Part shown: piece after piece, positions 3,200-58,343 of the stretch
How the letters are laid out: every line of letters starts with the position of its first letter
Numbering within the stretch: position 1 is the first letter of the stretch
From: Methanospirillum hungatei JF-1
GTDB taxonomy: Archaea > Halobacteriota > Methanomicrobia > Methanomicrobiales > Methanospirillaceae
Assembly (NCBI RefSeq): GCF_000013445.1
Contig: NC_007796.1
Span: 2,082,936-2,146,935 of the forward strand
DNA: 64,000 nucleotides
Reading direction: 5' to 3'
The notes under the pieces: model-generated
Told to the model about the DNA's origin: nothing
The model's database searches: none
What the model saw: only the letters and a program-made list of their open reading frames with translations
Made by a program: the position numbers and the translations under genes

Positions 3200-3428
3200 A
3201 ATTATTTTTTGCCTGAAGATCTTTCTTTTCCATAATATAGTCCCACAAAAATATGATTTGTTTGATTATGAGAGAAACTGATAAAATTAATAGGTAATTC
3301 TCATTTCGCAACCTACTATCAGAACTCTACCACACAATACCTGAAGACTGCCAGTATCACTCAACTCAATTATTAAAGGAACCCTCTTGATATCTGACCA
3401 TACATATATGAGAGAAGGGCGCTGTCTC

Positions 3429-5634: not shown

Positions 5635-5928
5635 CGTATTATCCCCTGAACTTTGTTATCAGTATTACTCTTTCATAAGCATATGTATTACCATCCACAA
5701 ACCCACAGATGTATCTCTCTTTAGACAAAAGATCTAGCAGATGATGTATCTCTTGGAGAAATCAACTGAAAAGAGAGCGAATATCTGAAAGAAACACTCA
5801 GCAATAACCTGGAGAATGATTATTCCTTCCTTCTGTAAGTACAGAACAGGGAATTCGGGCATATCTTCCCGATATGGGACATTGAAAGGCTATCAGGCAG
5901 TACGGCAAACCAGATTTACGTAGAAGGG
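5635..5928. other. Intergenic region at the leader-distal end of the CRISPR array
   Basis: No gene is seen. It would hold the promoter of the leftward AAA-like gene and the trailer of the leftward-transcribed CRISPR array. A 30-bp stretch at 5701-5730 is repeated with three mismatches at 27307-27336. Confidence 0.5.
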
Positions 5929-8900
5929 GTTTCAATCCCTATCGGGTTTTCTTTTCCATTGTGACTTGATGAATTGAAACACCCTTGGATCATATATATA
6001 AGGTTTCAATCCCTATCGGGTTTTCTTTTCCATTGTGACCTTTTTGTTCCTGTTGTTTGTATTTGAACCATCTAGGTTTCAATCCCTATCGGGTTTTCTT
6101 TTCCATTGTGACTTGTTGCGATTATATGAAGATTATAAGAAAACGCAGTTTCAATCCCTATCGGGTTTTCTTTTCCATTGTGACAAAAATCTATTCACAG
6201 GGATACAACCTCGTTCTGGGTTTCAATCCCTATCGGGTTTTCTTTTCCATTGTGACATCACTGAAGTTCCCTTAGGTGTTGGAGCATTATTGTTTCAATC
6301 CCTATCGGGTTTTCTTTTCCATTGTGACGAGTTTCCACATCAATTTTCATGGTATCACTCCGGGTTTCAATCCCTATCGGGTTTTCTTTTCCATTGTGAC
6401 CTTGTTAATTTCCTTTAATGCTGCATCACATACTAAGTTTCAATCCCTATCGGGTTTTCTTTTCCATTGTGACTTGGGTCTTGGCCTGCATCATTGGGGG
6501 AAGTATACGTTTCAATCCCTATCGGGTTTTCTTTTCCATTGTGACGAGTGTACATGGTCACATCAGTCAAAAAGGATCATGTGTTTCAATCCCTATCGGG
6601 TTTTCTTTTCCATTGTGACACTATGAATCCTCACGACTTCGAAGAGCCGGGCAAGTTTCAATCCCTATCGGGTTTTCTTTTCCATTGTGACAACATCTGC
6701 AACTCTGCCTCCGCTTGTCAGATTATGGTTTCAATCCCTATCGGGTTTTCTTTTCCATTGTGACCCGGTATATCACAAATCATCTGTTGAGTTATAAATG
6801 TTTCAATCCCTATCGGGTTTTCTTTTCCATTGTGACTTTTACCTTTATGCGCTGAAACCGCTTCCATGGACGTTTCAATCCCTATCGGGTTTTCTTTTCC
6901 ATTGTGACCGGAGAGCGGGATCCGGGAGTGAGCACACAGCAGAGTTTCAATCCCTATCGGGTTTTCTTTTCCATTGTGACTCGAGGGGCTCTGGGGGCTC
7001 ATGGGATCCGGACCCGGGTTTCAATCCCTATCGGGTTTTCTTTTCCATTGTGACACCTGACCGGCCTTTATCGTTGCTCCGGCGGTGAAAGTTTCAATCC
7101 CTATCGGGTTTTCTTTTCCATTGTGACAATTACCAAGTTTTTCACTGACATACTCGCATCATTGTTTCAATCCCTATCGGGTTTTCTTTTCCATTGTGAC
7201 TGGGCAGGCATGTGATGAGCGGACCAGTGGAACTCAGTTTCAATCCCTATCGGGTTTTCTTTTCCATTGTGACGAGTATTTCTGGGGGTCTGTCGTAATT
7301 GCTGTCTGAGTTTCAATCCCTATCGGGTTTTCTTTTCCATTGTGACGTAATCCTTGCGAGCGGGCTTTATGGTACAGTTATGGTTTCAATCCCTATCGGG
7401 TTTTCTTTTCCATTGTGACCAGGCATAAGGGCCTGGTTGAATGGCTAAAACTTGTTTCAATCCCTATCGGGTTTTCTTTTCCATTGTGACTTATATTGGG
7501 AATGTGAGCAATGGTGGATTTATGTGTTTCAATCCCTATCGGGTTTTCTTTTCCATTGTGACATTCTTTCAGGGCTTTAAGGTCTTCGCTCATATAAGTT
7601 TCAATCCCTATCGGGTTTTCTTTTCCATTGTGACGAACGGAAGGCGCAAATCTCATAACGTTCTGGGATGAGTTTCAATCCCTATCGGGTTTTCTTTTCC
7701 ATTGTGACTTGCTGCCTTTCGCTCAAACTCCTTGCGGGCGCCAGAGTTTCAATCCCTATCGGGTTTTCTTTTCCATTGTGACATATTCCGGTGTTAGAAC
7801 CGCGGCGTCTGCAGAAGTTTCAATCCCTATCGGGTTTTCTTTTCCATTGTGACAGTAGCAACACCGGCATACGAAGCGGGGTTACTCAGTTTCAATCCCT
7901 ATCGGGTTTTCTTTTCCATTGTGACACGTAGATCTCATGAGCAACATTGTGGCTGAACTGGTTTCAATCCCTATCGGGTTTTCTTTTCCATTGTGACCCA
8001 TTTGGGTCTGTGTATCGAACTGCACATACCACCGTTTCAATCCCTATCGGGTTTTCTTTTCCATTGTGACACGGGTCAGACCCTTCAATGTTCAGCGACT
8101 CTGAAAAGTTTCAATCCCTATCGGGTTTTCTTTTCCATTGTGACCCGGTTCCCCGACATCGAAAGCGTCCCGGAGAGGAGTTTCAATCCCTATCGGGTTT
8201 TCTTTTCCATTGTGACCTGAATACCAAGCTAGACAAACTTTTGGCACACTTTGGTTTCAATCCCTATCGGGTTTTCTTTTCCATTGTGACCATTTACCCA
8301 TTCAGTACCAGTCCAAACATAACAATGTTTCAATCCCTATCGGGTTTTCTTTTCCATTGTGACTGATCAGGGGAGTATGTGCAATGCTCAGTTACGAAGG
8401 TTTCAATCCCTATCGGGTTTTCTTTTCCATTGTGACACACATTTTCCTGCCGCCCACGTTACACATATCTGTGTTTCAATCCCTATCGGGTTTTCTTTTC
8501 CATTGTGACACACCAGTCGTAACCGCTTCTGCTGCTGTTGCTGAGTTTCAATCCCTATCGGGTTTTCTTTTCCATTGTGACTCACATCGTATCCTGCCTT
8601 GAAATCAAGATATGCGGTTTCAATCCCTATCGGGTTTTCTTTTCCATTGTGACCAGACTATAATCAGCCGTCATTACCAGTCTCTCAAAGTTTCAATCCC
8701 TATCGGGTTTTCTTTTCCATTGTGACTTGTCTCCGGTCTTCAGGCATACCACCCGGTCATAGTTTCAATCCCTATCGGGTTTTCTTTTCCATTGTGACTA
8801 ATATATTAGACATTAATCCAAGTGGTAAATATTAGTTTCAATCCCTATCGGGTTTTCTTTTCCATTGTGACAGGTCACCCGGTTTGACGATGAGAGAGAT

Positions 8901-25893: not shown

Positions 25894-26565
25894 ATGAAAA
25901 CCTACATCTCTCCCATCGGATTTGATACAACTCATCTCCTCGCTTTGTTAGTACGATTTGGCATAGAGTCTCATGATGTAGTAATCCTGATACGACCTAT
26001 TGAGGATGATGACCGTTCATTCCGTGCAATTGAAGAGATACAGGAGTTAATACGGAAGATAGGCGATGACATTACTATTAAAATCCTCAAGGTTGATCAT
26101 CGTGATTTTACCAGCATGGTATATTCCTTCGTATGTACTCTCAACGATTCAGCAGGAAAACCTGGAAGTAATAATAAATTACATGTAAATCTCTCTGGTG
26201 GGCCAAGAGAGATACTTACTGCACTAACAGCTGCCTGTATGGCTTTATCTGATAAGATACATACTGTAACCTCTTTCTCAGATATTGATCGAGAACTGCA
26301 TATCATCTCTCTCCCTCATATCGCAAACTCGCCTGACGATAAAGAGTATCAGATCTTATGTGATATCAAAAATCATGGCCCTACATCTTTTGCAGATATT
26401 GCTTCTCGATTGCAAATTTCTGAAAGTACCATCTCGCGCCAATGTTCACGACTTTCAGGTCTTCAGTGGATAACGATTGAATCAAGAGGAAAAAATAAAT
26501 TCGCGACTATCTCTCCTTCGGGTGAGATCATGATTATTCGATATAATCCATCTTATGATGAGTAA
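25894..26565 (+). CDS. csa3: Csa3-type CARF-HTH transcriptional regulator
   Basis: A 223-residue protein. The N-terminal CARF/Rossmann domain starts YISPIGFDTTHLLALLVRFG and includes NLSGGPREILTALTAACMAL, the ligand-binding loop of Csa3. The C-terminal winged helix is at about residues 150-215 (ADIASRLQISESTISRQCSRL is its recognition helix region). Csa3 proteins sense cyclic nucleotides and control adaptation or cas genes. It is transcribed away from the cas operon from a shared 104-bp region. Confidence 0.9.
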   Translation: MKTYISPIGFDTTHLLALLVRFGIESHDVVILIRPIEDDDRSFRAIEEIQELIRKIGDDITIKILKVDHRDFTSMVYSFVCTLNDSAGKPGSNNKLHVNLSGGPREILTALTAACMALSDKIHTVTSFSDIDRELHIISLPHIANSPDDKEYQILCDIKNHGPTSFADIASRLQISESTISRQCSRLSGLQWITIESRGKNKFATISPSGEIMIIRYNPSYDE

Positions 26566-27188: not shown

Positions 27189-27418
27189 ATACAGATATCT
27201 GCTGGTTGTTACCTCATTTCAATAATCTAAAGAATTATTAGACTTTTTTTGTATACAATAATCTTTCACCTTCCACCTACCAGATAGTACCAGACCCAAT
27301 CCACTCACCCACAGATGTATCTCCCTTCAGACGAAACTGGTGAGAGAACAGATGAATCTTATACGGCGTACTGTCCTGAAAAACAGACAGCCTGGGGACC
27401 TATCCGGAGGCTGATACC
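27189..27418 (+). other. Upstream region of the SNF2 operon
   Basis: No intact gene is seen. Bases 27307-27336 repeat the 30-bp element found at 5701-5730. GGAGG at 27406-27410 is a strong ribosome-binding site eight bases before the apparent, non-ATG start of the SNF2 gene. Confidence 0.4.
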
Positions 27419-30400
27419 ATCATTACCCTGCATGCCCTCATATCACCCCATACCTCTGGCATTGCCCTGTTTGGAGTTTCTGGAGACGAAGATTCTTTCC
27501 GTACCATCACCCTCAGCCATCGTGACCTCTATCCTCATGCTCTCCCGCATTACCTGCTTGCCGAGACGATTCAAAAGATAACCGGCATCTCCTCACAATC
27601 CTTTCACCGGGCTACCTGGACGATTCATGCCCCGGCACCCTCACCTCAAATTCCCCAGACCAATTATTGTGAACCAGAATTCAGGCAGGCACTCCTCTCC
27701 CGATATACCCTTCCAGGTCTCATCATCCCATACGAAATCTGTCTTGAGACGCTCACCTCCCTTCGGGCATCACCAGATATTCACATAGGTGACTCAATAG
27801 CCTGCCTCCTCACTCTGATGGAATCAGCATATATACTGGTCAGGGACGGAAAGTTCAAACCAGTCCTCACCCTGACACCAGAAGGATATCAGGCAGACTG
27901 GGTCCCGGCCCTCCTCCCAGATGATCTCGTATGGCTGGCCCGGTATGCAGCCGCTATGCCGCCGGTCATGCGATATGCCTCTCCCCTGGAGGAACTGCCC
28001 GAACCTATTCGAAAACCGGAGCAAATCATCTTTGCTGGCCTCTCCGGGATGATGGAGACCATTATCCGGCAGGCACTCAGACAGCACCCTCCATCGATCC
28101 GGCCAGGAAAGCGGATGATGGAACAGGAAAAAGATGCCCTTGCCTTCATGGCTCAACTCACCGGAAAAGACCTGAATACGCGGGAACATGAATTGGATCC
28201 GATCTTTGCAGAGAGGATGAATCACTGGCTTTCGTTTCGAAGAGAGGGATATATGCCCTTTCATACCTGTATCATCGTACAGGAACCAGGAGGGGAGGAC
28301 CTGGAACCCTGGACGATACGCCTGTGTATGCGATCAGAAGCAGATCCTGATCTCATCATCCCGGCAGGGACTATCTGGAACCTTCCCGAAGAATCAGGCG
28401 GAATCCTCCCCCCTGGGCCGGTTCTCATCCAGGAACTCCTCTCCGGACTTTCCCAGGCAGCATCAGCATCTCCTATCCTGAAAGCCTGCCTGTCCGGGTC
28501 GAATCCGACGACCGGGGAGATTACACTAGCCGATGCAGCGACTTTTCTTACCACAGAGGTTCTTGCAGTCAAAGACAAGGGATTTGACGTCATCCTCCCG
28601 TCATGGTGGACCGATGAGAAGTACAGGCCCCGGATAGAACTTGGTGCACAGAAGAAAGGGCCGGCTCACCCCCATGGGATGCTCGGAATATCAGAGCTTA
28701 TCTCGTTTGATTACCGGATTGCCATCGGTGATGAATCAGTCACTCCTGAAGAGTTCTGGCAGGCAGTCAGACAAAAGACGCCGATCATCAAAGTGAAGGG
28801 ACGGTGGATTTATGGGAATGCAGGTGCCCTTTCCACTGCACTCTCACAATTTGAGCGGCGGTACATCAGGGGAAAATCACAGGCAGGGGATCTCATCCGG
28901 CTGTCGGTCGGAGGATTTGATGGTCCGATGACTGTTCAGGTCAGGGGAACAGACGAATGGACCAAAGACATACTTACCATGCTCCGTTCTACCCAGGATA
29001 CTGCCGAATTTCCAATCCCACAAACCCTGAACGGTACACTCCGGCCATACCAGGAGATCGGTCATGCCTTCCTTCTGCGATGTACTGAGCGGGGATTTGG
29101 AGCCTGTCTTGCCGACGACATGGGACTAGGAAAGACCATTCAGACGATTGCCTGGTTTTTATCATTAAAAGAACAAAAGCCGGATATTGGTCCGGCTCTC
29201 ATCATCTGTCCGATGTCAGTTGTAGGAAACTGGGAACGGGAGATAAAACGGTTTGCTCCTTCTCTGTCGGTCTGGATCCACCATGGCATATCCCGGTGTC
29301 GTGGGGATGAATTCATCGCCCATATCGGCCGGTATGACCTTATTCTGACCACGTACAACCTGGCAAGCCGGGATATCGATCATCTCCTCCCGGTCAGGTG
29401 GTCTGCAGTCATCCTTGACGAGGCTCAGAATATTAAAAATCCGAATACGCTCCAGTCCCAGGCGATCCGGGAGCTGACTGCTGACCGGAGAATAGCCCTG
29501 ACCGGTACACCAGTGGAGAACCGGCTCCTTGAACTCTGGTCTATCATGGACTTTCTCAATCCCGGATACCTGGGGTCGCAGCATGCATTCCAGTCACGGT
29601 ATGGCCATCTGTCAGGAACAGAACAGGATAAACATGGGACCACAGAGCTTCGTCTGCTCATCAGGCCGTTCCTTCTCCGACGGATGAAGACCGACACGTC
29701 AGTGATTGCTGACCTTCCGGAAAAGATGGAATCACGGGTTTTTTGCACGCTTACCCATGAACAGGCGACCCTCTACCAGGCGGTTGTCGAAGATATGGCA
29801 CAGTCTCTTGAGACGGTAACCGGACTTGCACGACGGGGTGTCATATTCCGGGCCATCACCAGACTGAAGCAGATCTGCAATCACCCCGGTCTTTTCATCC
29901 ATGATCGGGGGGTTCTGCCCGAACGATCAGGAAAAGTCTCCCGACTTCTTGAGATGCTGGAGGAGGTCAGTGAAGAAGGAGATTCGGCCCTTATATTCAC
30001 TCAGTATGCTACGTTTGCAGAGTATCTTGCCCGAATACTCGAGGAGAGGTTTTTAATACCGGTATTCCTCCTCACCGGGAAGACCTCACGACGTGAGCGT
30101 GAACGACTGGTCAGGGAGTTTCAGTCATCAAAAGAGCCATCATTCTTTGTGATATCATTAAAAGCAGGAGGGACCGGGCTGAACCTCACCGCTGCGACCC
30201 ATGTATTTCATGTTGATCGATGGTGGAATCCTGCAGTTGAGGACCAGGCGACGGACCGGACCTACCGGATAGGACAGAAGCAGAATGTGCAAGTACACCT
30301 CATGATCGCTGCCGGAACACTGGAGGAACAGATTGACCGGATTAATGCAGAAAAACGGATTCTGGGACGGGAGGTTCTGGCACAGGGAGAGGATCTCCTC

Positions 30401-30478
30401 ACCAGTCTCTCAACAGAGGAGTTACTTGATATCGTCTCACTCCGTGATGCGGTGCTCTCCGGGGAGGAGGAGGAATGA
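27419..30478 (+). CDS. SNF2-family DNA helicase/translocase
   Basis: The frame is open from 27380 and reads as real protein from about 27419 ([18 protein letters not shown]), giving about 1019 residues. No ATG, GTG or TTG exists in frame before 27818, which would give 886. A GGAGG eight bases before an ATC codon suggests the original start was there and was lost or is non-canonical. Motifs (numbering from 27818): [12 protein letters not shown] near 430, DEAQNIKN near 538, [15 protein letters not shown], and the C-terminal [15 protein letters not shown] and [21 protein letters not shown]. The N-terminal half fits the domain found in bacterial and archaeal SNF2 proteins (PF12419-like). It overlaps the SWIM gene by four bases. 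Confidence 0.9.
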   Translation: [1019 protein letters not shown]

Positions 30479-31365
30479 CGAGAAAGATGTGGTGGCAGAT
30501 TCCAGGCACACTCCCGGTCAGTAAAAAGATTACCCTGCAAAGCCAGTACGGGCCGGTTGGGAAGAACTGGTGGGCCTCCCGGTTTGTATCGGTCCTTGAG
30601 GAGTATGGAGAGAACGGACGACTCACCAGGGCAAAACATTGTGCCAGGAACGGGTTTGGGAATTCCATCCGAATCGGTCCGGGTGAGATGAGTATGGGGA
30701 TCTGTTGCAGCGGAACAGCAACCAGACCTGTAGGATTGTTATTCCCCCGATTCTCCAGGGAGGTCTGGGACAATGTCATCGATACGATCACCAACGATGC
30801 TGCCCTGACCGGCTCACTCATAACCGGAGAGTTCTCGCGGGATCTTGTGGATACGCTGGAAAAGAAGGAGATATTTCTTATTCCTGACCAGTATCGGAGT
30901 GTTCGTGCCTACTGTCACTGTAGTGATGATCAGAACCCCTGTATCCATATCGCCGCTGCATGGTATTATCTTGCCGAGGTTCTGGATGAGGACCCCTGGA
31001 TACTGTTTCTGCTTCATGGGATGACGAAGGAAGAGGTGATAAGCCGGGTACAGACGTGCCGGCTTCAGGTATCCCATCCGGCTGTCGGGTCTGATGTGAC
31101 AGCAGGAATGGAGCAGAAGACCACTATTCCGAAGACCGGTGATACCCGGAGTTTCTTCTCATGCATCGGGGAGAGTGATGAGGTCCTGCGTCCGGTACCG
31201 GAGCGAAAGGTGTCGCCCATCCTGCTGCTTGGACCGGCCCCGTACCGGCTCGGAGGGAAGAATCTTGAGGAGCGGATAGAGAAACTGTATCCGGTTATCG
31301 GTGCGTATGCGAAAGGAGAGATGGATCGGATGAGGGAGAAATCATCCCGTCTGCGCCATCGATGA
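30475..31365 (+). CDS. SWIM zinc-finger protein
   Basis: A 296-residue protein with a SWIM motif, CHCSDDQNPCIHIAA (C-x-C-x6-C-x-H), near residue 147, and N-terminal W-rich segments (KMWWQIPGTLP, KNWWASRFV). SWIM proteins commonly sit beside SNF2 helicases in archaea and bacteria and are thought to help them bind DNA or protein partners. The ATG overlaps the SNF2 stop (ATGA). It is the second gene of a five-gene operon. Confidence 0.85.
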   Translation: MTRKMWWQIPGTLPVSKKITLQSQYGPVGKNWWASRFVSVLEEYGENGRLTRAKHCARNGFGNSIRIGPGEMSMGICCSGTATRPVGLLFPRFSREVWDNVIDTITNDAALTGSLITGEFSRDLVDTLEKKEIFLIPDQYRSVRAYCHCSDDQNPCIHIAAAWYYLAEVLDEDPWILFLLHGMTKEEVISRVQTCRLQVSHPAVGSDVTAGMEQKTTIPKTGDTRSFFSCIGESDEVLRPVPERKVSPILLLGPAPYRLGGKNLEERIEKLYPVIGAYAKGEMDRMREKSSRLRHR

Positions 31366-31392
31366 GTCTCAAGGCCGATTCGGATCTATTTT

Positions 31393-32097
31393 ATGGCAAT
31401 AAAAGAGATATCAGGTATGGATTATACCTTCCAGGATATCCTCAACCAAATCTTTGATAAACAGAAGAGAGATTATCTTACCATTACAGAGTTGAAAACC
31501 TCCCTCCCGAAAAACATTGAAAATTTCCTGGGGCCTCAGCCAAAAAAAGGAACCAATAAGAAATTTATCGAGAGATTAAAACCCCATCTTTCGGAGGCCT
31601 ATACAATACATAAAAAAGGAGCCAGCACCTACCTTCTCCGGGCGCCAATTCAGGATATTATCCACGCATATATCGTTCAAAAAACCTCTGTAAGCATAAG
31701 GAACGTCTCAAAAAAACTTCCATTTCAAAAAGAGCTGATCGCCGATGCATTAAACGCCCTTGTCCAATCCGGGGCTATACAGCTGAAGATTGTTCCCACG
31801 TCACGGGATTATATGATACAGATCCTCGTCCCGGAACGGCCGGATCCCTTTCGTGAGATAAAAAAGGCATACGATACCATCAGAATGGGCAAAAATTATG
31901 TCAAGATCTTTGCACTCCGCAGATTTCTCAACTGGCCAAAGCATGTATTTGACTCAGTTATTCAGTCATTATGGGATGCAGGAGTCGTCGAACTTCAGGC
32001 AAGTGATCCCTACCTCCTCACCGAGGATCAACGAGCCGACTCCTACATGGATAAAACACATACCTTGCGTATTCTTCTCATCTGGAGGAATGAATGA
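31393..32097 (+). CDS. Hypothetical protein with winged-helix-like repeats
   Basis: A 234-residue protein not assigned to a named family. Its layout suggests two or three winged-helix units: DYLTITELKTSLPKNIENFL early, SIRNVSKKLPFQKELIADAL with LVQSGAIQLKI in the middle, and KIFALRRFLNWPKHVFDSV with LWDAGVVELQ late. Each is a helix-turn-helix followed by a short wing, so a DNA-binding adaptor role is plausible but inferred. It starts 27 bases after the SWIM gene and overlaps the next gene by four bases. Confidence 0.7.
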   Translation: MAIKEISGMDYTFQDILNQIFDKQKRDYLTITELKTSLPKNIENFLGPQPKKGTNKKFIERLKPHLSEAYTIHKKGASTYLLRAPIQDIIHAYIVQKTSVSIRNVSKKLPFQKELIADALNALVQSGAIQLKIVPTSRDYMIQILVPERPDPFREIKKAYDTIRMGKNYVKIFALRRFLNWPKHVFDSVIQSLWDAGVVELQASDPYLLTEDQRADSYMDKTHTLRILLIWRNE

Positions 32098-34169
32098 AGA
32101 ATCCACGGGAGATATTGCAGGAAAATAACCCATTCTCATCACACGCCCAACCAGACCCCTGGGTGAATCAGTTTCCCACCATCTCATCCATCAATGGTGA
32201 TGCCTTCACACACATCACCAGCATTATTGCGTATAAACAGAAACACCCCCATGATCCGGTTGGAATCCTGGTAAACGGTGAAGCAGGAAGCGGAAAGACG
32301 AATATGATCGCCCGCATACGGGAGTACTGTCAAAGTACTTCTTTTGACGTGAAATTCTCAACAATACGGCCTATCATCAACTATAACGCTCCAATACAGC
32401 ATCTATTCCATGGAATAATCACCAACCTCTCTCACCCCCTCAAAGACTCATTTCGGTTTACCCAGATTCACGCCATGCTCTTCTCGATGATATCGGAGTA
32501 CATCAATCAAAAAGAAGAGTATAGAAAGTTATTCCAGCCATTCAAAGACAATCCGGAGAAATTCTTTACACATTTTTCAGAGCATGAAAAAGAGCGAAAT
32601 ATCCTCTACAATCAGGTGCAAACCTGGATAATAGACAAGATACCGGATATCGATCATCTCTTCATCAGGTTACTCTTTGCGTGTGGTGACAAAGACCTGT
32701 TTCACCCTGCACGCAACCGGCTCCTTGGACAGATTGCAGACCCTGACGATGCATCCCTTTTGAATATCCCGTTCAAAGAGTTGTCAGAAGCTGAAGCAGA
32801 GGATGAGGCGAGTACATTTCTTAAATCACTCGGTCTTCTCCTGACCTTTCTCAATCAATGCCTGATCGTCTGCTTTGATCAGCTGGAGAACCTGTACACG
32901 GGAGAGCATCAACGATCATTCGGACTGATGAATCAGATTATCCTGAATGAGACCTCTGCCATCCTTCCCCTTGCCTTCATGAGAACCCTTTACTGGGAGA
33001 GATTTGAAGAGATACTGGATAGATCAGTGGTTGATAAGATCGGGATGAATCAGGTTGATCTTCGTGGATGCACAGAAGAACAGATAACGGAGATCATCAC
33101 CTCCCGTATCAGGACTGTATTTCCCGATACCTGGAATATGCTTACAGACTGGCTTATCCCACAGGTATTACGGGAATTATCATCCCGTGGAAAATATCCC
33201 TCTCCCCGTGAGGTCATCAGCACCGCGAATACGATCATCAGGATGAAGGATGAAAAGGGGACCACAAAAGAGATCCCCCTTCCTTCTCCGGATCAGGTCA
33301 TCAGATCGGCATGGGTGCAGGAGCATGATCAGGTCCTCTCAGATCTGGATGCATGGCCGCCTGATTATGAACAGATAACCAGTGCTTTGCAGATTTATCT
33401 CCAATCACACAGGGTTGCATTCACCTGTACCAGGGAATCCAGAAAGAATATCATAACAATCAATCATACCTCGAAGAATTGCAGAATTATCATCAATACC
33501 AATAGCAATCATAGCAGCATCGGTTCAGGTTTTACAAAGGGGATACAGTATCTTACGAATAATCCAGGCTCTTTATGCCTGTATCTGACTGATCCCAGAT
33601 GTATTGTGACCAAACCGACATGGACCCAGACAAACCAGAAGAGAGAGGAATTTCTTGCCGCCGGAGGGCGGATTATACAACCATCAGAAGGTGAGATCGC
33701 ACGGTTTTATGCCCTGTATTCCCTCGTCTGTAAGGTCAATGAGGGAGATATTCAGATTGAGACTATCCATGGTCTTCGTCCGATAATTCGGGATGAACTC
33801 TCAGCCTATGTCGGGAATAAGGAAGCATTTCCATCCCTTATACCAGCAATTCCTGCAGGAGTTCCGGGAAAGGTCCCTATAGACATTCCTTCACAAGAGA
33901 AGCATGAAAAAGTAGACTCAAAAATGCGGGAGATAACAGATAACGCAGTACACACCGCTCTATGCACGATCCTGTATTCCCGCCCGATGCACATCATGCG
34001 GGCCGATATACTCGTCCAAAGTCTTCAGGAGAACGGAATCTCCATGACTTATGACGAACTCATCATATGGTGTGGAAGACACCCGGCTGCATATAAGATA
34101 ATACCCAATCAGCAGGGTTCATTGATCATCGCAACAGGAAAAGGGCCCATATGCAAAGACTCTTCGTAA
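32094..34169 (+). CDS. P-loop ATPase of unassigned family (operon core)
   Basis: A 691-residue protein. Walker A is NGEAGSGKTNMI near residue 65, and Walker B is LIVCFDQLENL near residue 258, followed by a sensor-like region (LPLAFMRTLYWERF). These features fit an ORC/STAND or BrxC-like AAA+ ATPase. The C-terminal third (after about residue 430) has SHRVAFTCTRESRKNIITI and a helical end, and may bind DNA. It overlaps the upstream gene by four bases and the downstream nuclease-translocase by 19 bases, so the two are probably partners. I do not recognise an established defence family. Confidence 0.75.
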   Translation: MKNPREILQENNPFSSHAQPDPWVNQFPTISSINGDAFTHITSIIAYKQKHPHDPVGILVNGEAGSGKTNMIARIREYCQSTSFDVKFSTIRPIINYNAPIQHLFHGIITNLSHPLKDSFRFTQIHAMLFSMISEYINQKEEYRKLFQPFKDNPEKFFTHFSEHEKERNILYNQVQTWIIDKIPDIDHLFIRLLFACGDKDLFHPARNRLLGQIADPDDASLLNIPFKELSEAEAEDEASTFLKSLGLLLTFLNQCLIVCFDQLENLYTGEHQRSFGLMNQIILNETSAILPLAFMRTLYWERFEEILDRSVVDKIGMNQVDLRGCTEEQITEIITSRIRTVFPDTWNMLTDWLIPQVLRELSSRGKYPSPREVISTANTIIRMKDEKGTTKEIPLPSPDQVIRSAWVQEHDQVLSDLDAWPPDYEQITSALQIYLQSHRVAFTCTRESRKNIITINHTSKNCRIIINTNSNHSSIGSGFTKGIQYLTNNPGSLCLYLTDPRCIVTKPTWTQTNQKREEFLAAGGRIIQPSEGEIARFYALYSLVCKVNEGDIQIETIHGLRPIIRDELSAYVGNKEAFPSLIPAIPAGVPGKVPIDIPSQEKHEKVDSKMREITDNAVHTALCTILYSRPMHIMRADILVQSLQENGISMTYDELIIWCGRHPAAYKIIPNQQGSLIIATGKGPICKDSS

Positions 34170-36118
34170 GTGAACTCCATCTCTGCCAGCACTGCCCACG
34201 GCTCTTTGGATATGCCTGCAGGGGCGAGAAGGATGCATGGAGGGTCGGACAGAAAGGATCAGGAAACCTTCCCGGGAAGCGGTTTCATACCTTCGCAGAT
34301 CAGGTTTTTCGACATATTACGCAGGAGAAGACAAGCCAGCATGCCTTTATCACCGCACTTCAATCACCTGATCCTGATAGTGCAGAATCAATTCGAGAGT
34401 TTATCAAGAATGAGTTTTTCATCCCATATCTTACAAAACATGCCCCTCGCCTCTCACATGAACAGATAGAGGCATTTGCAGTCGCATGCGACCGATGGAT
34501 ACGCTATCTCAGAGTCTTCATCTCCCCTGACGGGACGGGTATTGAGGATCCAAAAAAACTCATATCAACCATATTTCACTCATCAGAATACACCATGAGT
34601 TCTGATTTTCTATGTGACGATGGAGAAGTGGTGAAAATAAGCGGAAGGCCTGATGCTCTTCTTTTTGATCCTGGGACACAAGAACCGGTGGTTGTAGAGT
34701 ATAAGGGGAGAAAAGAGTCAGATCCAACGCAGGATCTTGCACAGACCTCACTGTATGCATGGCTCGTCTCCCGGTCAATCGGCATCACACCACGGGTTGA
34801 TATGCTCTATCTTGAAGACCCCGTCCCCCTCGTCAGATATGACTCATCTGCGATACACACTCTCATAGGAAATCATGCATCACTCATCACTCTTGCACGA
34901 CGGATTAAAGAAGGCCATCTCCCGGTTCCCAGATGTAAGGACCCTGACCTGTGCAAAATGTGCCCCTATACCGCATGTGACACTGACTTTGAAGTGATTC
35001 GTCCTAATACGCCACAAAAACAGGAAGAAGAAGTCAAACCGACGGATACCCGAATCCCGCATGATCTCTCTCTTGGAGAGGCATATCTCTCCAGGTTGGT
35101 CGAGACCCTCCATCTGCTTTCAATTCCGGTTCTCCCGGCAGGATTTATCTTCGGACCGCGATTTATCAGGCTGAAGATTATCCCTGATCTCTCGAAAAGA
35201 GTCACGTTTTCCAAGATTGCGAACCGTGCGGTTGATATCCAGCTTGGATTATCGCTATCCTTTCCTCCCCTTATTCAGGCACAAAGCGGGTATATCAGCT
35301 GTGACGTACCCCATGATACCTGGCAGCCATGCGATGTCAGATCCCTGATCCGGGATGGAAAACCATCATCCAGGTCAGTCTGTCCCTTTCCGATCGGGAG
35401 AAGAATAGACGGATCGGTCATGATGGGCGATCTGGCAGATCCGGTTATGACCAGTTGTCTTATCGGGGGGACATCCGGATCAGGAAAGAGTGAACTTATC
35501 CGGTCAATCGTCATCGGAAGTACACTCATGAACCCGAAAAACCAGGTCTCATTCATACTTATCGATCCAAAACGAGTGACATTTACCGATTTTCTCTCCT
35601 TCCCATCTCTCTTCATGCCGGTGATCATGGATCCAGATATGGCTATCACGACCCTTGATGCATGTGTCAGAGAGATGGAGGAACGGTATATTCATCTGGA
35701 AAAAACGGGGTTTACGAACATTTCAAAGTACAATACCAGGCAACCTGAACCGATGACCCGCCGGATCATCGTTATTGATGAGTATGCGGATCTTATCATG
35801 AACCGGGTCACGAAAGAGGCTCTGGAGACTGCAATTCAGAAGATTGGACAGAAAGGAAGAGCGGCAGGGTTTCATCTGATTCTGGCCACCCAGCGACCTG
35901 ATGCACGGATAATCACCGGCGTCATCAAAGCAAATCTTCAACTCAAGATTGGGCTGAAAGTTACGTCTGCATCTAATTCACGAATCATTCTCGATGAATC
36001 CGGAGCAGAATGTCTGGCAGGATATGGAGATATGCTCATCGGCGGGAGTGTTCCGATACAGCGATTACAGGGAGCCCTGGTCTCATCAGGTGATTTTTCG
36101 GCGTGTGGAAAGAAATAG
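34151..36118 (+). CDS. Cas4-like Fe-S nuclease fused to an FtsK/HerA-type translocase
   Basis: A 655-residue fusion. The N-terminal 280 residues look like a Cas4/RecB nuclease: CQHCPRLFG (Cys12, Cys15), ISGRPDALLF (Asp, about 163), VVVEYKGR (E-x-K, about 183), QTSLYAWLV (Q-x-x-x-Y, about 198), and CKDPDLCKMCPYTAC (about 262-276), which would complete a 4Fe-4S cluster. The C-terminal half is an FtsK-like motor: GGTSGSGKSELI (Walker A, about 440), RIIVIDEYADLI (Walker B, about 540), and ILATQRPDARIITGVIKANL. A nuclease and a DNA pump in one chain suggest end-processing or DNA clearance. It is the last gene of the operon. Confidence 0.85.
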   Translation: MQRLFVSELHLCQHCPRLFGYACRGEKDAWRVGQKGSGNLPGKRFHTFADQVFRHITQEKTSQHAFITALQSPDPDSAESIREFIKNEFFIPYLTKHAPRLSHEQIEAFAVACDRWIRYLRVFISPDGTGIEDPKKLISTIFHSSEYTMSSDFLCDDGEVVKISGRPDALLFDPGTQEPVVVEYKGRKESDPTQDLAQTSLYAWLVSRSIGITPRVDMLYLEDPVPLVRYDSSAIHTLIGNHASLITLARRIKEGHLPVPRCKDPDLCKMCPYTACDTDFEVIRPNTPQKQEEEVKPTDTRIPHDLSLGEAYLSRLVETLHLLSIPVLPAGFIFGPRFIRLKIIPDLSKRVTFSKIANRAVDIQLGLSLSFPPLIQAQSGYISCDVPHDTWQPCDVRSLIRDGKPSSRSVCPFPIGRRIDGSVMMGDLADPVMTSCLIGGTSGSGKSELIRSIVIGSTLMNPKNQVSFILIDPKRVTFTDFLSFPSLFMPVIMDPDMAITTLDACVREMEERYIHLEKTGFTNISKYNTRQPEPMTRRIIVIDEYADLIMNRVTKEALETAIQKIGQKGRAAGFHLILATQRPDARIITGVIKANLQLKIGLKVTSASNSRIILDESGAECLAGYGDMLIGGSVPIQRLQGALVSSGDFSACGKK

Positions 36119-36345: not shown

Positions 36346-37332
36346 CTATTGAAAGAGGTTCTTGTTGAGGGTAGTTTTCGGCTCAATACCATAACTCTTC
36401 CTCATTTCTTTGATGCAGAGATCAATCAGAGTAGACACAAACCCCGATGGGACAGTGCTTTTCATATCTTCAGAATCCTTTCTATCGTATTTTACACCAG
36501 GGGGAAGAGAACCCGATCTACCGGGGACTGATGGTACTTCGTCATCTTCATCTTCATCCGAATCCTGAAGATCACATTCTTCATCTTCCTCCATGTATTT
36601 CTCAAAATACCGGTCAAGCAGTTCATACAGTTCTGGAGAAATGATCTCATCGCTCGTCCACCCTTCAGGGTACCACCTGACGAGGCGATCAGGTTCTTCA
36701 GCAAAGTATTCTATTCCGAACAAGGGCGAGTCAGGGATGACCTGAATCTCCTCGTAACTGCAATTATGATGAGGGAGGCAATGTTTACAGATGAGAGGAG
36801 TCCCCCCTTCATGATAACACTCATCACAAAAAAAATCGGCTTTCGATCCGCAGATGTCACAATCATAAGGTATCCGTGAATTTCTGGCAACAACACAGAT
36901 AGAATCATGAGCCGGGGTATATGCTGGCTGTCTCTCCATAACAACCAGATGGAGTACCGTTGGTGAGAAGAAATTACAGGTATACGTACAGGTCATCCCA
37001 GGTCTGAAGACCTTCCCCACGCGTACCTTCATCCCCGAACTGTCAGGATATGAGGTATACTCTTCTCCTTCAATAGTAAATGAACTTATGTGGTCATCTC
37101 CCATCCATATATCCTTCAGGAGAAGGTCGATATCTTCAAGGGTTGCATCAGGGAGAGAGGAAAGATACATCCAGTATTCAGGGTGGCCTTCAGCGGTAAC
37201 CTCTATCAGATAAGCAGAAGGTTTTGGAGATTTCTTTTTCTTGTGTGATATCAGATGTACCTCAGCAGATTTTCTGGAGATATCTTTTCTGCATACGAGA
37301 CATTGTCCGGGTGATGAAGGTAAGAGAGTCAT
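36346..37332 (-). CDS. pRiA4b ORF-3-like protein with zinc-finger regions
   Basis: A 328-residue protein. The segment YLIEVTAEGHPEYWMYLSSL, PDATLEDIDLLLKDIWMGDDHISSF matches the pRiA4b ORF-3 fold (PF07929), a domain common on plasmids and in mobile DNA. Cysteine pairs occur at the start (CLVCRKDI with downstream HLISH) and in the middle (CDICGSKADFFCDECY, CKHCLPHHNC), giving two or three probable zinc sites. A very acidic stretch (DSDEDEDDEV) sits near the C-terminus. Function is unknown. It is convergent with the five-gene operon, with 227 bases between. Confidence 0.6.
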   Translation of the reverse strand: MTLLPSSPGQCLVCRKDISRKSAEVHLISHKKKKSPKPSAYLIEVTAEGHPEYWMYLSSLPDATLEDIDLLLKDIWMGDDHISSFTIEGEEYTSYPDSSGMKVRVGKVFRPGMTCTYTCNFFSPTVLHLVVMERQPAYTPAHDSICVVARNSRIPYDCDICGSKADFFCDECYHEGGTPLICKHCLPHHNCSYEEIQVIPDSPLFGIEYFAEEPDRLVRWYPEGWTSDEIISPELYELLDRYFEKYMEEDEECDLQDSDEDEDDEVPSVPGRSGSLPPGVKYDRKDSEDMKSTVPSGFVSTLIDLCIKEMRKSYGIEPKTTLNKNLFQ

Positions 37333-37921: not shown

Positions 37922-38200
37922 TTAACTTTGGTATTTACGGTATATCGTTTTCCTATGACCTGCTTCAATTACCAGAAGCATCAGTTTATTATCAAAAATC
38001 TCAAGGATGGCCCGATATTCTCCAGTCCTCAATGAATACAAGCCCTTTGCCCTCCCTTTGAGGGGTCCAAGTTTCTCCCGAGGATTTTCAAGTAGTTCAA
38101 GTTCTGCAAAAGCAACCTCAAGAGATCTCCGGGCAAATTTCGGAAGCTGTGCTAAGTCACGTTCTGCTCCTTTCGAGATGAGTAACGTGAACTTACTCAA
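37922..38200 (-). CDS. RelE/ParE-type toxin
   Basis: A 92-residue protein of the RelE/ParE fold: FTLLISKGAERDLAQLP, then LGPLKGRAKGLYSLRTGEYRAILEI, and ending VIEAGHRKTIYRKYQS. The RTGEYR, GHR and YRKY motifs mark this archaeal RelE group. RelE proteins cut mRNA on the ribosome, and the antitoxin gene just upstream overlaps it by eight bases. The 5' part of this gene (38097-38200) lies in a 1048-bp segment duplicated at 40501. Confidence 0.85.
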   Translation of the reverse strand: MSKFTLLISKGAERDLAQLPKFARRSLEVAFAELELLENPREKLGPLKGRAKGLYSLRTGEYRAILEIFDNKLMLLVIEAGHRKTIYRKYQS

Positions 38201-39144
38201 ATGAATCTCCTAGATCTGCCATCACTTCTTTCAGTGTCTTGCATCTTCCAGTCCTGAAATCTTCTCTCGCTTCTGCAATCCTTTGAAGAGTCTCCTCGCT
38301 GAGCGGTTCATCATCAATGTCACAGGCAATTTCAAGAAGTTCAGCAATAACCCGGTCATCAGTCATATCAGAAGAACCTCGGAATGCAATCAACTTTTCA
38401 TATGTTGAATCGCTTAGGGATACCGTGACTGTCATACAAGTGTATTGTTTTTATGGAAAATATGCATTCCCCTGAGAGGTGAGCATGATACTCATAAATC
38501 TCAAATTCGAACAGGAATGAAAAGAGGCAGATAAATAGGTACAATCATGAATAAAAACCAGGTTCATATGACATATACAGATATGTATGCATAAATAACG
38601 GGAGTTTATTATTTCTTACGGTAGACATTATCTGAACTCCTTTCTCAACATCAGGAATGATCACCCTGATTTATCAATATCCTGAATACCGGAAACAACA
38701 TACCTCTATATATGAGCCAGTCAACACCATCCTGGCGGGCTATAAAAACAAGTCTGGCCGGAATGGATGCTAATTCCCTCATATCTCTCATTCATGATCT
38801 CTATGCCCTGAATAAGGAGAACAAAGAGTATTTGCAGGGAAGAGTAGGTGGGGAAGCAGCATATGCCAGTCTTCGTGAAAATGCAGCCAAAAAGATAAAA
38901 CATGAGTTCTTTCCGGAACGGAGATTTGGAAAAGCCAGAATTGCCCCGGTTAAAAAGGGGATAGACGAATATAAGAAAGCAACCGGAGACCCCATTGGAA
39001 CTGCTGATCTGACCCTCCAGTTTATCGAACAGTTTGTGAAACTTTGCCGGGAATATGGGGGTGAGGAACAGTCAAAATTAGATGCACTCAGTGTTGCGAT
39101 GAAAGAATTGCTTAAAATTCTTGAGTCATGTCCTGCAATAATTG
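38097..39144. repeat. 1048-bp direct repeat, copy 1
   Basis: Aligns without any net length change to 40501-41548 (constant offset of 2404). It covers the toxin 5' end, the whole antitoxin, the promoter region and the first 144 codons of the 155-residue ORF. Scattered substitutions separate the copies. Confidence 0.9.
38193..38435 (-). CDS. Antitoxin of the RelE pair (copy 1)
   Basis: An 80-residue protein. The N-terminal TVTVSLSDSTYEKLIAFRG looks like a short ribbon-helix or AbrB-like DNA-binding strand. The acidic C-terminal half (DIDDEPLSEETLQRIAEARE) would wrap the toxin. It matches the antitoxin group found beside archaeal RelE toxins. A second copy with one residue changed is at 40597-40839. 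Confidence 0.8.
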   Translation of the reverse strand: MTVTVSLSDSTYEKLIAFRGSSDMTDDRVIAELLEIACDIDDEPLSEETLQRIAEAREDFRTGRCKTLKEVMADLGDSFE

Positions 39145-40481: not shown

Positions 40482-40604
40482 TTATCTAGCATCAACGAAT
40501 TCAAGTTCTGCAAAAGCAACCTCAAGAGATCTCCGTGCAAATTTCGGAAGCTGTGCTAAGTCACGTTCTGCTCCTTTCGAGATGAGTAACGTGAATTTAC
40601 TCAA
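40482..40604 (-). pseudogene. Truncated RelE toxin (copy 2)
   Basis: The first 35 codons match the toxin at 37922-38200, up to FAELE. The frame then enters unrelated sequence and stops after FVDAR. The catalytic end is missing, so the downstream antitoxin copy has no partner here. Confidence 0.8.
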
Positions 40605-41548
40605 ATGAATCTCCCAGATCTGCCATCACTTCTTTCAGTGTCTTGCATCTTCCAGCCCTGAAATCTTCTCTCGCTTCTGCAATCCTTTGAAGAGTCTCCT
40701 CGCTGAGCGGTTCATCATCAATGTCACAGGCAATTTCAAGAAGTTCAGCAATAACCCGGTCATCAGTCATATCAGAAGAGCCTCGGAATGCAATCAACTT
40801 TTCATATGTTGAATCGCTTAGGGATACCGTGACTGTCATACAAGTGTATTGTTTTTATGGAAAATATGCATTCCCGTGAGAGGTGAGCATGATACTCATA
40901 AATCTCAAATTCGAACAGGAATGAAAAGAGGCAGAGAAAATGGTTCAATCATGAATAAAAACCAGGATCATATGACATGAACAGGTATGTATGCATAAAT
41001 TACGGGAGTTTATTATTTCTTACGGTAGACATTATCTGAACTCCTTTCTCAACATCAGGAATGATCACCCTGATTTATCAATATCCTGAATACCGGAAAC
41101 AACATACCTCTATATATGAGTCAGTCAAACCCATCCTGGCGGGCAATTAAAACAAGTCTGGCCGGAATGGATGCTAATTCCCTCATATCTCTCATTCATG
41201 ATCTCTATGCCCTGAATAAGGAGAACAAAGAGTATTTGCAGGGAAGAGTTGGGGGAGAAGCAGCATATGCCAGTCTTCGTGAGAATGCAGCCAAAAAGAT
41301 CAGACATGAGTTCTTTCCTGAACGTGGATATGGAAAAGCCAGAATTGCTCCGGTTAAAAAGGCTATTCAGGGTTATAAGAAAGCGACCGGAGACCCCATT
41401 GGAACTGCTGATCTGACCCTCCAGTTTATCGAACAGTTTGTAAAACTTTGCCGGGAATATGGGGGTGAGGAACAGTCAAAATTAGATGCACTCAGTGTTG
41501 CGATGAAAGAATTGCTTAAAATTCTTGAGTCATGTCCTGCAATAATTG
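40501..41548. repeat. 1048-bp direct repeat, copy 2
   Basis: Second copy of 38097-39144. Together they bracket the DUF3821 gene. Copy 2 keeps the intact downstream gene, whereas copy 1 keeps the intact toxin. Confidence 0.9.
40597..40839 (-). CDS. Antitoxin of RelE pair (copy 2, orphan)
   Basis: An 80-residue protein identical to copy 1 except alanine for threonine in the DFRAGRCKTLKEVM region. Its toxin is truncated, so it is now an orphan. It could still neutralise the copy 1 toxin. Confidence 0.75.
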   Translation of the reverse strand: MTVTVSLSDSTYEKLIAFRGSSDMTDDRVIAELLEIACDIDDEPLSEETLQRIAEAREDFRAGRCKTLKEVMADLGDSFE

Positions 41549-51552: not shown

Positions 51553-52722
51553 TTAGACATGAAAGAACTCTTCGAGATACGCCTGTTTCATACTTTCAGG
51601 TGCAGTGTATTGAAGAATTATATCACTTATGGGAAAACCCGATTCTAACAATCCACGAATTTCTGTATTGCATGAGGCTAATACTGCCTCAGAACTTTCA
51701 TTGCCTGGTTTTAGAATTATCACTTCTTCTGCACTGATACTCTTATCCCATATAAGATCGGCACTATGAGTACTGATAAAAACTTGTCTCTTTCTCCGTG
51801 TAGCTTTATCCAGTTCATACATAATTTTTGGAAGTTCACGAACTATTGCTGTATTTAGGGATAACTCAGGCTCTTCCAGTAGTAAAGGAGAATCTCTGGG
51901 TTCAAGGAGTGACCATAGTAAGCCAATTAATCGAAGTGTCCCATCAGAAAACTGTTCTTCCTGTTGTTTTCCGGCTCTGGGTCTCCAATGTTCATATCTG
52001 GCTTCCAAGTGAGGTATTCCAAATTTATCGGTTGTGAATGAGAGTTCTGTGAGATGAGGGACAAGAATTCTTAATCTTTTCTCGATATTTTTAAGACGTG
52101 AATTTCTCGTATTTTCCGGGGTTTTCGCGAGGAGTTCCAAAAAATTTCGGCCATACGGATCATCCGGTAGATTGGGGCCAGTAAAAGCCTGAGGATGACG
52201 GATTAGTTGCGGGACAATATGGAAATACCTGATATCACTTAAAAAGGATGCAAGCACTCTGAATTTTCCATTCGCTGATGTCTGCTCAAGATGAGTTTGA
52301 GACAGGAGGGTTTCATCTTTTAGGTCATCAACATCAGGTCTGGATAGAATAGTCTCTCCATTTTTTATGACGATCTCATAACTTACACAGGGATCATGCT
52401 TTCCATGAGGTTGTCTGTTAATTCCCAGACGATATATCCAGTTTACTGGTGTTTCACCTGGTTCTTCGATATGAACCTCTATTTCTATCTGTGAATTTGT
52501 TCTTGCTGCAAGGCATCGGAGTTTGGATATACCACCTCTCCGCTCCAAGGCATCAAAGAGACTTCCTCCTTGCTTGGATATATCATGAAGAAACCTGAAT
52601 ACATCTAAAAAATTAGATTTTCCTGATGCATTCGGACCTACAATGAACATCCGGGATTGAAATGAGATATCAACACTGGAGAAATTTTTCCAGTTTTTCA
52701 GTAATAGACGTTTAATCATCAT
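51553..52722 (-). CDS. ABC-type/AAA_21 ATPase (OLD/RecF-like)
   Basis: A 389-residue ATPase: FIVGPNASGKSNFLD (Walker A, about residue 30), EEQFSDGTLRLIGLLW (ABC signature), LLLEEPELSLN (Walker B) and VFISTHSADLI (switch His). It belongs to the AAA_21/AAA15 group found in OLD, PARIS and similar defence modules. The next gene, on the same strand, is a TOPRIM-like protein. BREX genes lie about 1.5 kb away. Confidence 0.8.
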   Translation of the reverse strand: MMIKRLLLKNWKNFSSVDISFQSRMFIVGPNASGKSNFLDVFRFLHDISKQGGSLFDALERRGGISKLRCLAARTNSQIEIEVHIEEPGETPVNWIYRLGINRQPHGKHDPCVSYEIVIKNGETILSRPDVDDLKDETLLSQTHLEQTSANGKFRVLASFLSDIRYFHIVPQLIRHPQAFTGPNLPDDPYGRNFLELLAKTPENTRNSRLKNIEKRLRILVPHLTELSFTTDKFGIPHLEARYEHWRPRAGKQQEEQFSDGTLRLIGLLWSLLEPRDSPLLLEEPELSLNTAIVRELPKIMYELDKATRRKRQVFISTHSADLIWDKSISAEEVIILKPGNESSEAVLASCNTEIRGLLESGFPISDIILQYTAPESMKQAYLEEFFHV

Positions 52723-54212: not shown

Positions 54213-54791
54213 ATGAATACTGAGGCCCGGATGGAACTTCTCAAAGGGAAAATCGTTCGTGAGGATTTTTTAAAAGCAAGAGGGCTCGGGAATGAGATCC
54301 CCTTTTGGATATTTGATTACCCGCCGGAAGATGAACATTTTGTCAGATATTCGATACGGAAGATTCAGGAAAAACTGACTTCTCGCTCTATTCATTATAT
54401 GGAGATAGATCTGTATGAATTATGTCTAGAGATCATTGAGAGCAAAATATCATCAGATAAGATCAATGAATTTGAGAAGAATAAAGGGTCGGATAAATTA
54501 TTAAAAAAATTGCAGATTATTCTGAAACCAGAGAATTTAAAGAATGAGATTCAGCAGAGAGTTGTTTCAGAGGACGCTTTTGAGTTGATATTACTTACCG
54601 GGATAGGAAAAGCCTGGCCACTTATAAGGCTCCACTCTATTCTCAACAATCTTCAACCGGTTCTGGGAAATATTCCGTTATTAGCCTTTTACCCCGGTGA
54701 GTATACCAATTCGGAGTTGAGTCTTTTCAGGAAATTCAAAGATGCAAATTATTACCGGGCGTTTCGGATGATTGACGAAGGAACTGCATAA
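54213..54791 (+). CDS. brxB: BREX protein BrxB (DUF1788)
   Basis: A 192-residue protein with the DUF1788 plan: FWIFDYPPEDEHFVRYSIRK early, FELILLTGIGKAWPLIRLHS in the middle, and PLLAFYPGEYTNSELSLF with NYYRAFRM at the end. BrxB is a core protein of BREX type 1, the phage-exclusion system that methylates host DNA. It is followed 13 bases later by brxC and preceded by a TATA box. Length is normal. Confidence 0.85.
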   Translation: MNTEARMELLKGKIVREDFLKARGLGNEIPFWIFDYPPEDEHFVRYSIRKIQEKLTSRSIHYMEIDLYELCLEIIESKISSDKINEFEKNKGSDKLLKKLQIILKPENLKNEIQQRVVSEDAFELILLTGIGKAWPLIRLHSILNNLQPVLGNIPLLAFYPGEYTNSELSLFRKFKDANYYRAFRMIDEGTA

Positions 54792-54804
54792 AGGGAGATG
54801 TAAT

Positions 54805-57800: not shown

Positions 57801-58341
57801 GGCACAGGAGAGCCTGCAGGAGTTGGACCGGATCATAAAGGCTGATAATCCTTATTCTGATATCAAAAAGCTTCCTCAACTGGAGAGTGTGATTGAGGGA
57901 TCTCTCGCAGTATCACGTGAGCGGTTACAGGAAGAACTGAAGAATTCTGCTGATCAGTTCAAACAGAAGATAGATAGAAAGTTCAGTTATTCGGATGAGT
58001 ACAAGGAGTCAATAGCACCTCTAGTCAGGGAGACGTTTGATGGTTCTGTAAGCCGGGCACTGAATTCGAACGATTGTTCTCATCTTAAGTTGGCGGCATC
58101 AAATCTCTCTAATCTCTATATCCGGGCCTGTAAAACTACGGAAGAGAAGATTAAAAAAATTATCGAGAACGAACCAGATATTAATCCGGTCCCGGTACGA
58201 TCAAACCATGTCATCAATTCAACCGATTTCTTCAGGACTAATACTGTCATTGAGAATGAGGAGGATCTTGAGCGGTATCTGGCGGGTATCAGGGTGAAGC
58301 TTCGGGAGATACTCAAAGATAAGAACATCGAGGTGATCTGA
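54805..58341 (+). CDS. brxC: BREX ATPase BrxC
   Basis: 1178 residues from the ATG at 54805 (MEPKIQDLFINDITREING), which follows GGGAGA; the open frame reaches back to 54772. WISGDFGSGKSHFLKILS is Walker A and VVFLIDEIGQYI is Walker B. The long helical C-terminus and length are typical of BrxC (PglY-like, DUF499-related). It is thought to power assembly of the BREX complex. It ends three bases before pglX. Confidence 0.9.
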   Translation: MEPKIQDLFINDITREINGVIKVDQEDDQNVFTELDEYVVTKESLKYIDTFFQRYASALDSPTDKTGVWISGDFGSGKSHFLKILSYLLENRKVFGKSALEFFQSKISDSDILTTIEKSVRTGTKDVILFNIDSKSGETGERIVDILMRVFNEKRGYFPDVFWIAELEERLEEKGLYQKFKDAIAEISGEPWEEVRTRYSFEQDVIIEALDRCLFQSKESSERMFESDGQNYILTPEKFAQKVKTYCEARGRDHQVVFLIDEIGQYIGDNSQLMLNLQTVAEELGTILKGKAWIIVTSQADIETALKAMKGKEVKQDFSKIQARFDTRVSLSSANVDEVIKKRILKKKEEYTEMLSLFYEEKKTILKNLISFSGGAEMKNYRDGDDFTSVYPFVPYQFIVLQKVFEKIRTTGFTGKHLAKGERSMLNAYKEAAERYGSSDLGTLVPFYSFYDTIESFLDPIIKRTITQAGDNEHLEEFDCLLLKTLFMIRHVQELPKNLDNIIVLSLSSVDEDKLQLRERVIASLNRLERETLISKSGDNFYFLTNEEQEINREIKQIDIDRHLIVQEIFDQVFTSNSICQKSYGEYKFNKSVDDKVSSSSDADLTIRFLTPLADEYVRGSGQQSLGGENLSNIDSKDTLLFIFPEESGFVGQIQGYLQIEKFLKQTRSNRNDELMKKYLIEKQQEAASLKESSISAIHEGVKDARVFVDGIEVSLSSGSPKELVRDGFERLIKAVYHKSHYVNQEFASDSDVLRVLKSADLTQFGVSTSEVNHLALQEMHDYISVKDEKKVPVVMSELISHFSRKPYGWKVMTISGLLAMLYKGDDIRLRYQRAYLAHNPEDIARYITRKENFDKIVIELKKKTSAEIIQNVKALLRDVYDISALPEKEQEISDLIRSTLDEKKGELAADLARYSEEPRYPGRKRIEPYLTMIKEILSISDPTAFLEKLSEDKDTLADMAHEAGVAVQFFEGNQKDIFKRVLDKIDGYHRNSQFLDDSAQESLQELDRIIKADNPYSDIKKLPQLESVIEGSLAVSRERLQEELKNSADQFKQKIDRKFSYSDEYKESIAPLVRETFDGSVSRALNSNDCSHLKLAASNLSNLYIRACKTTEEKIKKIIENEPDINPVPVRSNHVINSTDFFRTNTVIENEEDLERYLAGIRVKLREILKDKNIEVI

Positions 58342-58343
58342 TC

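Follow-up and report, generated by a model that had tools for sequence, protein, structure and literature searches.

The window analyzed here, a stretch of 64,000 nucleotides of the genome of Methanospirillum hungatei JF-1 (NC_007796.1, positions 2,082,936 to 2,146,935), contains a run of five plus-strand genes, which overlap by 4, 4, and 19 bases and are otherwise separated by a single gap of 27 bases. The first gene (27340 to 30478) encodes a translocase of the SNF2 family, resembling SCO1167/SCO6262 and including DUF3670, and the second (30475 to 31365) a SWIM zinc finger protein with a CxC...CxH motif, which is the partner of the SNF2 protein and whose orthologues adjoin SNF2. The following three genes, here called the triad, encode a protein with three tandem winged-helix domains (31393 to 32097), an AAA+ ATPase similar to ORC1/Cdc6 and also to BrxC, with C-terminal α/β and winged-helix-like regions (32094 to 34169), and a Cas4-type Fe-S nuclease of the PD-(D/E)XK class fused to an FtsK/SpoIIIE motor (34151 to 36118). 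An earlier note on this DNA had given the same order, strand, and spacing, which were reproduced from the coordinates, and had taken the five genes for the operon of a single system. The region instead consists of two separable modules, the SNF2-SWIM pair and the triad, which are joined into a single closely packed run in the M. hungatei lineage alone. The last three genes, left unassigned before, were found to be conserved and to belong together.

The winged-helix domains of the first triad protein were recognized by alignment and by a fold search with its AlphaFold model, which had a predicted local distance difference test (pLDDT) value of 85.6. For the ATPase, Pfam and NCBIfam gave marginal profile matches only (KAP, AAA_16, BrxC/D, and orc1/cdc6), and a sequence search of the PDB with the ATPase profile returned nothing significant. 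The best fold matches of its model (pLDDT 82.9) were Cdc6/ORC proteins (E value of 1.2e-5), followed by BrxC, in accordance with an AAA+ fold of the initiator clade, albeit at modest TM-scores of 0.20 to 0.43. The Walker A motif, GE.G.GKT, is invariant among the aligned ATPases. Residues 425 to 549 gave the impression of a strand/helix order like that of restriction enzymes, a candidate that was dropped as no conserved catalytic pair was seen there by eye. The third protein comprises 655 residues, with the nuclease at approximately residues 1 to 290 and the motor at approximately 310 to 655. The motor matches FtsK_SpoIIIE (Pfam, 5.5e-33) and solved structures such as 2iuu (7.6e-61), and it possesses both Walker A and Walker B motifs. 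The nuclease carries the motifs of the Cas4/RecB type (H, D, ExK, QxxxY, and a cysteine cluster), and residues H46, D168, E183, K185, Q198, Y202, C15, C268, C271, and C276 are invariant in an 11-sequence alignment. The membrane anchor and gamma domain of FtsK are lacking, since the N-terminal part is the nuclease and the protein ends with the motor. Nor does the nuclease correspond to the Cas4 of CRISPR adaptation: in the triad it is linked to the winged-helix and ATPase genes, is often fused to FtsK, and lies outside cas operons without a cas1/cas2 partnership. No family in Pfam, NCBIfam, or PADLOC names the winged-helix protein or the ATPase.

Relatives were collected with two short peptide patterns run over 84,980 species genomes, an approach of low recall, and with profile searches. 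The resulting sample comprised 65 distinct ATPase loci, 61 of them with enough upstream sequence and 58 scored for a downstream nuclease or motor; because about half derive from related Synergistota, these loci are not an independent sample. In 56 of the 61 loci, the winged-helix gene is located directly upstream of the ATPase gene, and in most cases the ends of the two overlap; a Cas4 gene follows the ATPase gene in 42 of 58. The triad occurs in Methanospirillaceae, to which it is essentially restricted within the archaeal phylum, in Synergistota, in Desulfobacterota, and in one further bacterial phylum (4 of 52 genomes). In one Synergistota order, profile searches detected it in 55 of 183 genomes, which stand close together in the genome list. 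Cas4-FtsK fusions are present in the archaea, in Desulfobacterota, and in several Synergistota that do not belong to the main Synergistaceae clade; this clade keeps Cas4 without a fused motor. The ATPase itself is fused directly to FtsK in two distinct groups of bacteria (L115; L156 and L157), and the very divergent locus L126 features a different PD-(D/E)XK nuclease fused to FtsK. The midpoint-rooted ATPase tree tracks the main lineages, and as the Cas4-FtsK form is spread over several of them, this fusion is plausibly ancestral. A variant layout was seen in Methanofilum (L017:9233-14451), where one ATPase is fused to the winged-helix part, another ATPase is encoded as well, and the Cas4 protein lacks FtsK.

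The distribution of the triad is independent of the SNF2-SWIM pair, which stands beside only 2 of the 65 ATPase loci. Specifically, the order csa3-SNF2-SWIM-triad, including the 27-base gap, is kept only in the close genome G008 (L018). In a sister species (G001), the triad (L012, at about 0.78 Mb) stands by itself after a thermosome-like gene, and the SNF2-SWIM orthologues (87% and 76% identity, the latter for SWIM) are found at about 2.73 Mb, approximately 1.95 Mb away. In other genomes, the triad is preceded by unrelated genes (G010), by a partial unrelated open reading frame (ORF; G011, L015), or, in place of the pair, by a divergent AlbA_2/Schlafen-like gene recognized by eye (G005). The earlier note had itself proposed checking whether the five genes co-occur across genomes and had named a lack of co-occurrence with SNF2-SWIM as counting against its view; since the pairing is confined to M. 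hungatei and one very close genome, such a lack is what was found.

As a function for the triad, we favor, at a probability of roughly 0.55, work on DNA ends that are broken or stalled, or else chromosome processing, by a machine that may operate like HerA-NurA; strains such as JF-1 may secondarily use it for defense. In this model, the triple winged-helix protein and the ORC/Cdc6-like ATPase would bind DNA and assemble or load the FtsK-type ring; the ring would pump double-stranded DNA and feed it to the tethered Cas4-type nuclease, which would resect or cleave what the motor delivers. This loader-motor-nuclease scheme is suggested by the invariance of the nuclease, cysteine, and Walker A residues and by the alignment of the motor with FtsK structures. 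The loader step is supported by the fold of the ATPase, best matched by Cdc6/ORC proteins, which load rings on DNA. At the sequence level, the strongest argument that ATPase and motor work together is that the two are directly fused, and thereby linked, in two distinct groups of bacteria. A processing role is further supported by the lineage-following distribution of the triad, its frequency in one Synergistota clade, and its mostly ordinary chromosomal neighbors. Outside the window, these include mraW, PBP, pilM, pilins, ftsK, ligase, or metabolic genes; they were read from the sequences and a few profile matches, as a description rather than a computed enrichment of defense genes. In Synergistaceae, the position of the locus between division and pilus genes is stable, and searches of phages, plasmids, and viral contigs gave no triad match; the alignment of the winged-helix proteins offered no segment of sufficient conservation for scanning. 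Because of these neighbors, this stable position, and the missing matches on mobile and viral DNA, end or chromosome processing is preferred over restriction-like defense. The earlier note had listed DNA repair or chromosome processing as the alternative to defense; it now fits better than defense, without being proven.

Several observations weigh against this reading. Twelve of the 58 scored loci contain the winged-helix and ATPase genes without a nuclease or motor nearby, and consequently the nuclease/motor part is not obligatory there. Outside Synergistota the triad is patchy, being present in 9 of 395 genomes in the phylum of the deltaproteobacterial locus L021 and in 3 of 393 in the archaeal phylum, and copies decay, as seen from a transposase in L013 and a broken copy in L016; patchy spread and decay suit an accessory or defense system as well. 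The transposase gene of L013 (G010, positions 2620 to 6072; IS66-like by eye) interrupts the triad ATPase gene. In the window itself, the triad sits inside a clear defense island. An AddA-like protein was detected in 31 of 55 triad genomes and in 60 of 128 others of the Synergistota order, a weak test in which no match exceeded the curated cut-off; replacement of AddAB by the triad was discarded for this lack of anti-correlation. None of the nine triad genomes of the archaeal class gave a NurA match, but neither did triad-less Methanospirillum, so that the triad is not a clean complement of NurA. Replacement of NurA by the triad was likewise rejected, as NurA is undetected genus-wide whether or not the triad is present. 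It was found in none of the 12 Methanospirillum genomes searched, M. hungatei included, and about half of the class has NurA.

The main rival is a restriction-type defense module like SspFGH or DndFGH, in which the ATPase would join with a small partner and a translocase-nuclease of the FtsK type to attack unmodified or invading DNA; we regard it as unlikely, though clearly ahead of the remaining alternatives. In the phosphorothioate-based SspFGH system, SspF has a Walker A motif and SspH an FtsK motor at its C-terminus, and none of the three genes can be dispensed with (PMC8092258). The triad shares this three-part logic, consisting likewise of three adjacent genes, among them one for an ATPase with a Walker A motif and one for a protein whose C-terminal part is an FtsK/SpoIIIE motor, and the best PADLOC matches of its motor are SspH (9.4e-51) and mad8 (2.4e-24). 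The SspH similarity is, however, limited to the motor region: the third triad protein has a Cas4-type nuclease and 655 residues, in contrast to 1,561 to 1,766 for the SspH profile, and neither the winged-helix protein nor the ATPase matches SspF, SspG, DndF, or DndG in PADLOC or NCBIfam. With DndFGH, the likeness consists in the combination of an ATPase and an FtsK-like translocase, whereas no DptF, DptG, or DptH profile of NCBIfam matches the triad. The M. hungatei genome gave a partial DndC match below the curated cut-off (SspBCD was not searched), and the module contains no gene for a self-marking enzyme. Membership in either system was therefore rejected, as homologues of the other subunits were not found in PADLOC and NCBIfam and DndC does not exceed the cut-off.

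For a defense role speak, in addition, the surroundings in the window, the fold similarity of the ATPase to BrxC of BREX, and the patchy occurrence and decay described above. The earlier note had placed the genes next to CRISPR-Cas, toxin-antitoxin, and BREX loci, and a type I-D CRISPR-Cas locus, a ParE-type toxin, and BrxB, BrxC, and PglX were indeed found. BrxB, BrxC, and a PglX-like protein of 612 residues, shorter than most PglX profiles, are encoded at 54213 to 60182; beside them, on the minus strand at 51556 to 52722, lies the gene for an AAA ATPase close to HEC-01A of PADLOC (6.1e-146). The inference that the location fits defense thus stands for the window, where the island is real, and not for other genomes, in which triads are mostly surrounded by ordinary chromosomal genes. 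Against restriction-like defense also stand the frequent, lineage-following occurrence of the module in one Synergistota clade and its absence from the plasmid, phage, and viral sequences searched. The BREX likeness itself is confined to the ORC-like AAA+ fold, with a solved BrxC among the fold matches (Foldseek E value of about 2e-3). Homology to BrxC was rejected at the profile level, where only the Walker A stretch aligned with the BrxC of the window (hhalign probability of 10.7). The triad lacks BrxC, BrxB, PglX, and PglZ, and the BrxB-BrxC-PglX run of the window is separate.

It is improbable that the five genes of M. hungatei work together as a single system, in which SNF2-SWIM would strip proteins from DNA and the triad would then load and degrade it. 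The tight spacing with overlaps and its retention, gap included, in the close genome G008 speak for such a system. This arrangement is nevertheless limited to two loci, the orthologous pair of the sister species lies far from its triad, and the SNF2 gene of JF-1 is frameshifted near its start; as a general unit, the five genes are ruled out by their distribution. A role of the Synergistaceae module in pilus-linked handling of incoming DNA during uptake or transformation is most improbable, because the pilus genes that adjoin it there are missing beside the module in Methanospirillum, in Desulfobacterota, and in Synergistota with the Cas4-FtsK fusion. What speaks for it is the layout of the Synergistaceae loci concerned (L023, L024, and L108 to L113), where the winged-helix, ATPase, and Cas4 genes are continued by genes for pilin-like, PilM, and pilin proteins, followed by an FtsK gene, and the fusion of Cas4 to a pilin-like stretch in L026.

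Returning to the favored processing machine, one known counterpart is HerA-NurA, in which a DNA pump of the FtsK-HerA superfamily is coupled to a nuclease, with a proposed role at DNA ends. The triad differs in that its motor belongs to the FtsK branch and its nuclease to the Cas4/RecB branch, and in its additional ORC-like ATPase and triple winged-helix protein. ORC1/Cdc6 initiators are the best structural matches of the ATPase; at about 12% identity, the triad protein is longer, has extra C-terminal regions, and matches no NCBIfam orc1/cdc6 profile above the cut-off. Cas4-FtsK fusions or this gene set were not found in the literature searched, which covered few subscription papers, and a phylogenomic study of Cas4 does not mention FtsK (PMC5704561). 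In line with the earlier note, which knew of no described system with this set, none was found in the profile libraries either. The triad is thus apparently undescribed; its parts and the motor-nuclease principle are known, and the combination is new.

The domain calls made previously for SNF2, SWIM, Cas4, and FtsK are supported by profile matches, with the qualification that the SWIM domain scores slightly below the Pfam cut-off and is identified by its intact motif. The SNF2 domain matches at 1.6e-69 (Pfam), together with DUF3670. With an SNF2 gene followed by a SWIM gene in the window and in relatives, the first two genes belong to the SNF2-SWIM pairs of the SCO1167/SCO6262 helicase family (NF058637, 641 bits), although the SNF2 protein remains below the equivalog cut-off of 1200. 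Such pairs recur in Methanospirillaceae, a second one being present elsewhere in the M. hungatei genome, and in the window the pair happens to precede the triad. In another Methanospirillum (G003, L160:4227-14212), genes resembling sbcD and sbcC, recognized from the sequence by eye and not by profile, come after an SNF2-SWIM pair in the same orientation. Given this run, the probable task of the pair is to clear DNA of bound proteins, or to remodel such DNA, for end-processing nucleases in general.

The start of the SNF2 gene requires correction. The earlier note had placed it at 27419, where the codon is ATC; the first in-frame ATG, GTG, or TTG occurs at 27818. In the relatives L018 and L140, the gene begins at a codon equivalent to GTG 27340, which in the window is out of frame. 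Compared with both, the window shows a 2-base deletion near 27384/27385, close behind this start, as a consequence of which the frame of GTG 27340 reaches a stop at 27412 to 27414. Because of this deletion, the SNF2 gene may be N-terminally truncated or damaged in JF-1, or the sequence may contain an error.

Upstream of the module and outside it, a Csa3-type CARF-winged-helix regulator of the neighboring type I-D CRISPR-Cas locus is encoded at 25894 to 26565 (plus strand). Downstream, the triad is adjoined by a gene for a PRiA4_ORF3-like protein (36346 to 37332, minus strand); another such gene lies near the SNF2-SWIM pair of G009 (L161:6172-6843), both assigned from weak matches or by eye. 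Between 38196 and 41661, a stretch carrying a toxin-antitoxin-like gene pair is apparently tandemly duplicated, with identical 80-residue ORFs at 38196 to 38435 and 40600 to 40839 and near-identical ORFs at 38712 and 41116.

For the interpretation of such loci, these results are a caution that tight gene runs in defense islands need not be single systems. Pairs of a motor and a nuclease lie at the heart of break repair and of several defense systems, and the triad concerns protein families left unnamed by current profile libraries. With its additional initiator-like ATPase and the direct ATPase-motor fusions, this conserved set of three genes would allow a coupling of ring loading to DNA degradation to be tested. 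In its most novel form, which we put forward tentatively and somewhat below even odds, the triad would be an unnamed DNA-processing system common to archaea and bacteria: an ATPase of the initiator type, partnered by a triple winged-helix protein, would load an FtsK ring to which a Cas4 nuclease is attached. If this is true, the loading logic of replication origins would have been adopted to place on DNA a motor that destroys or resects it.

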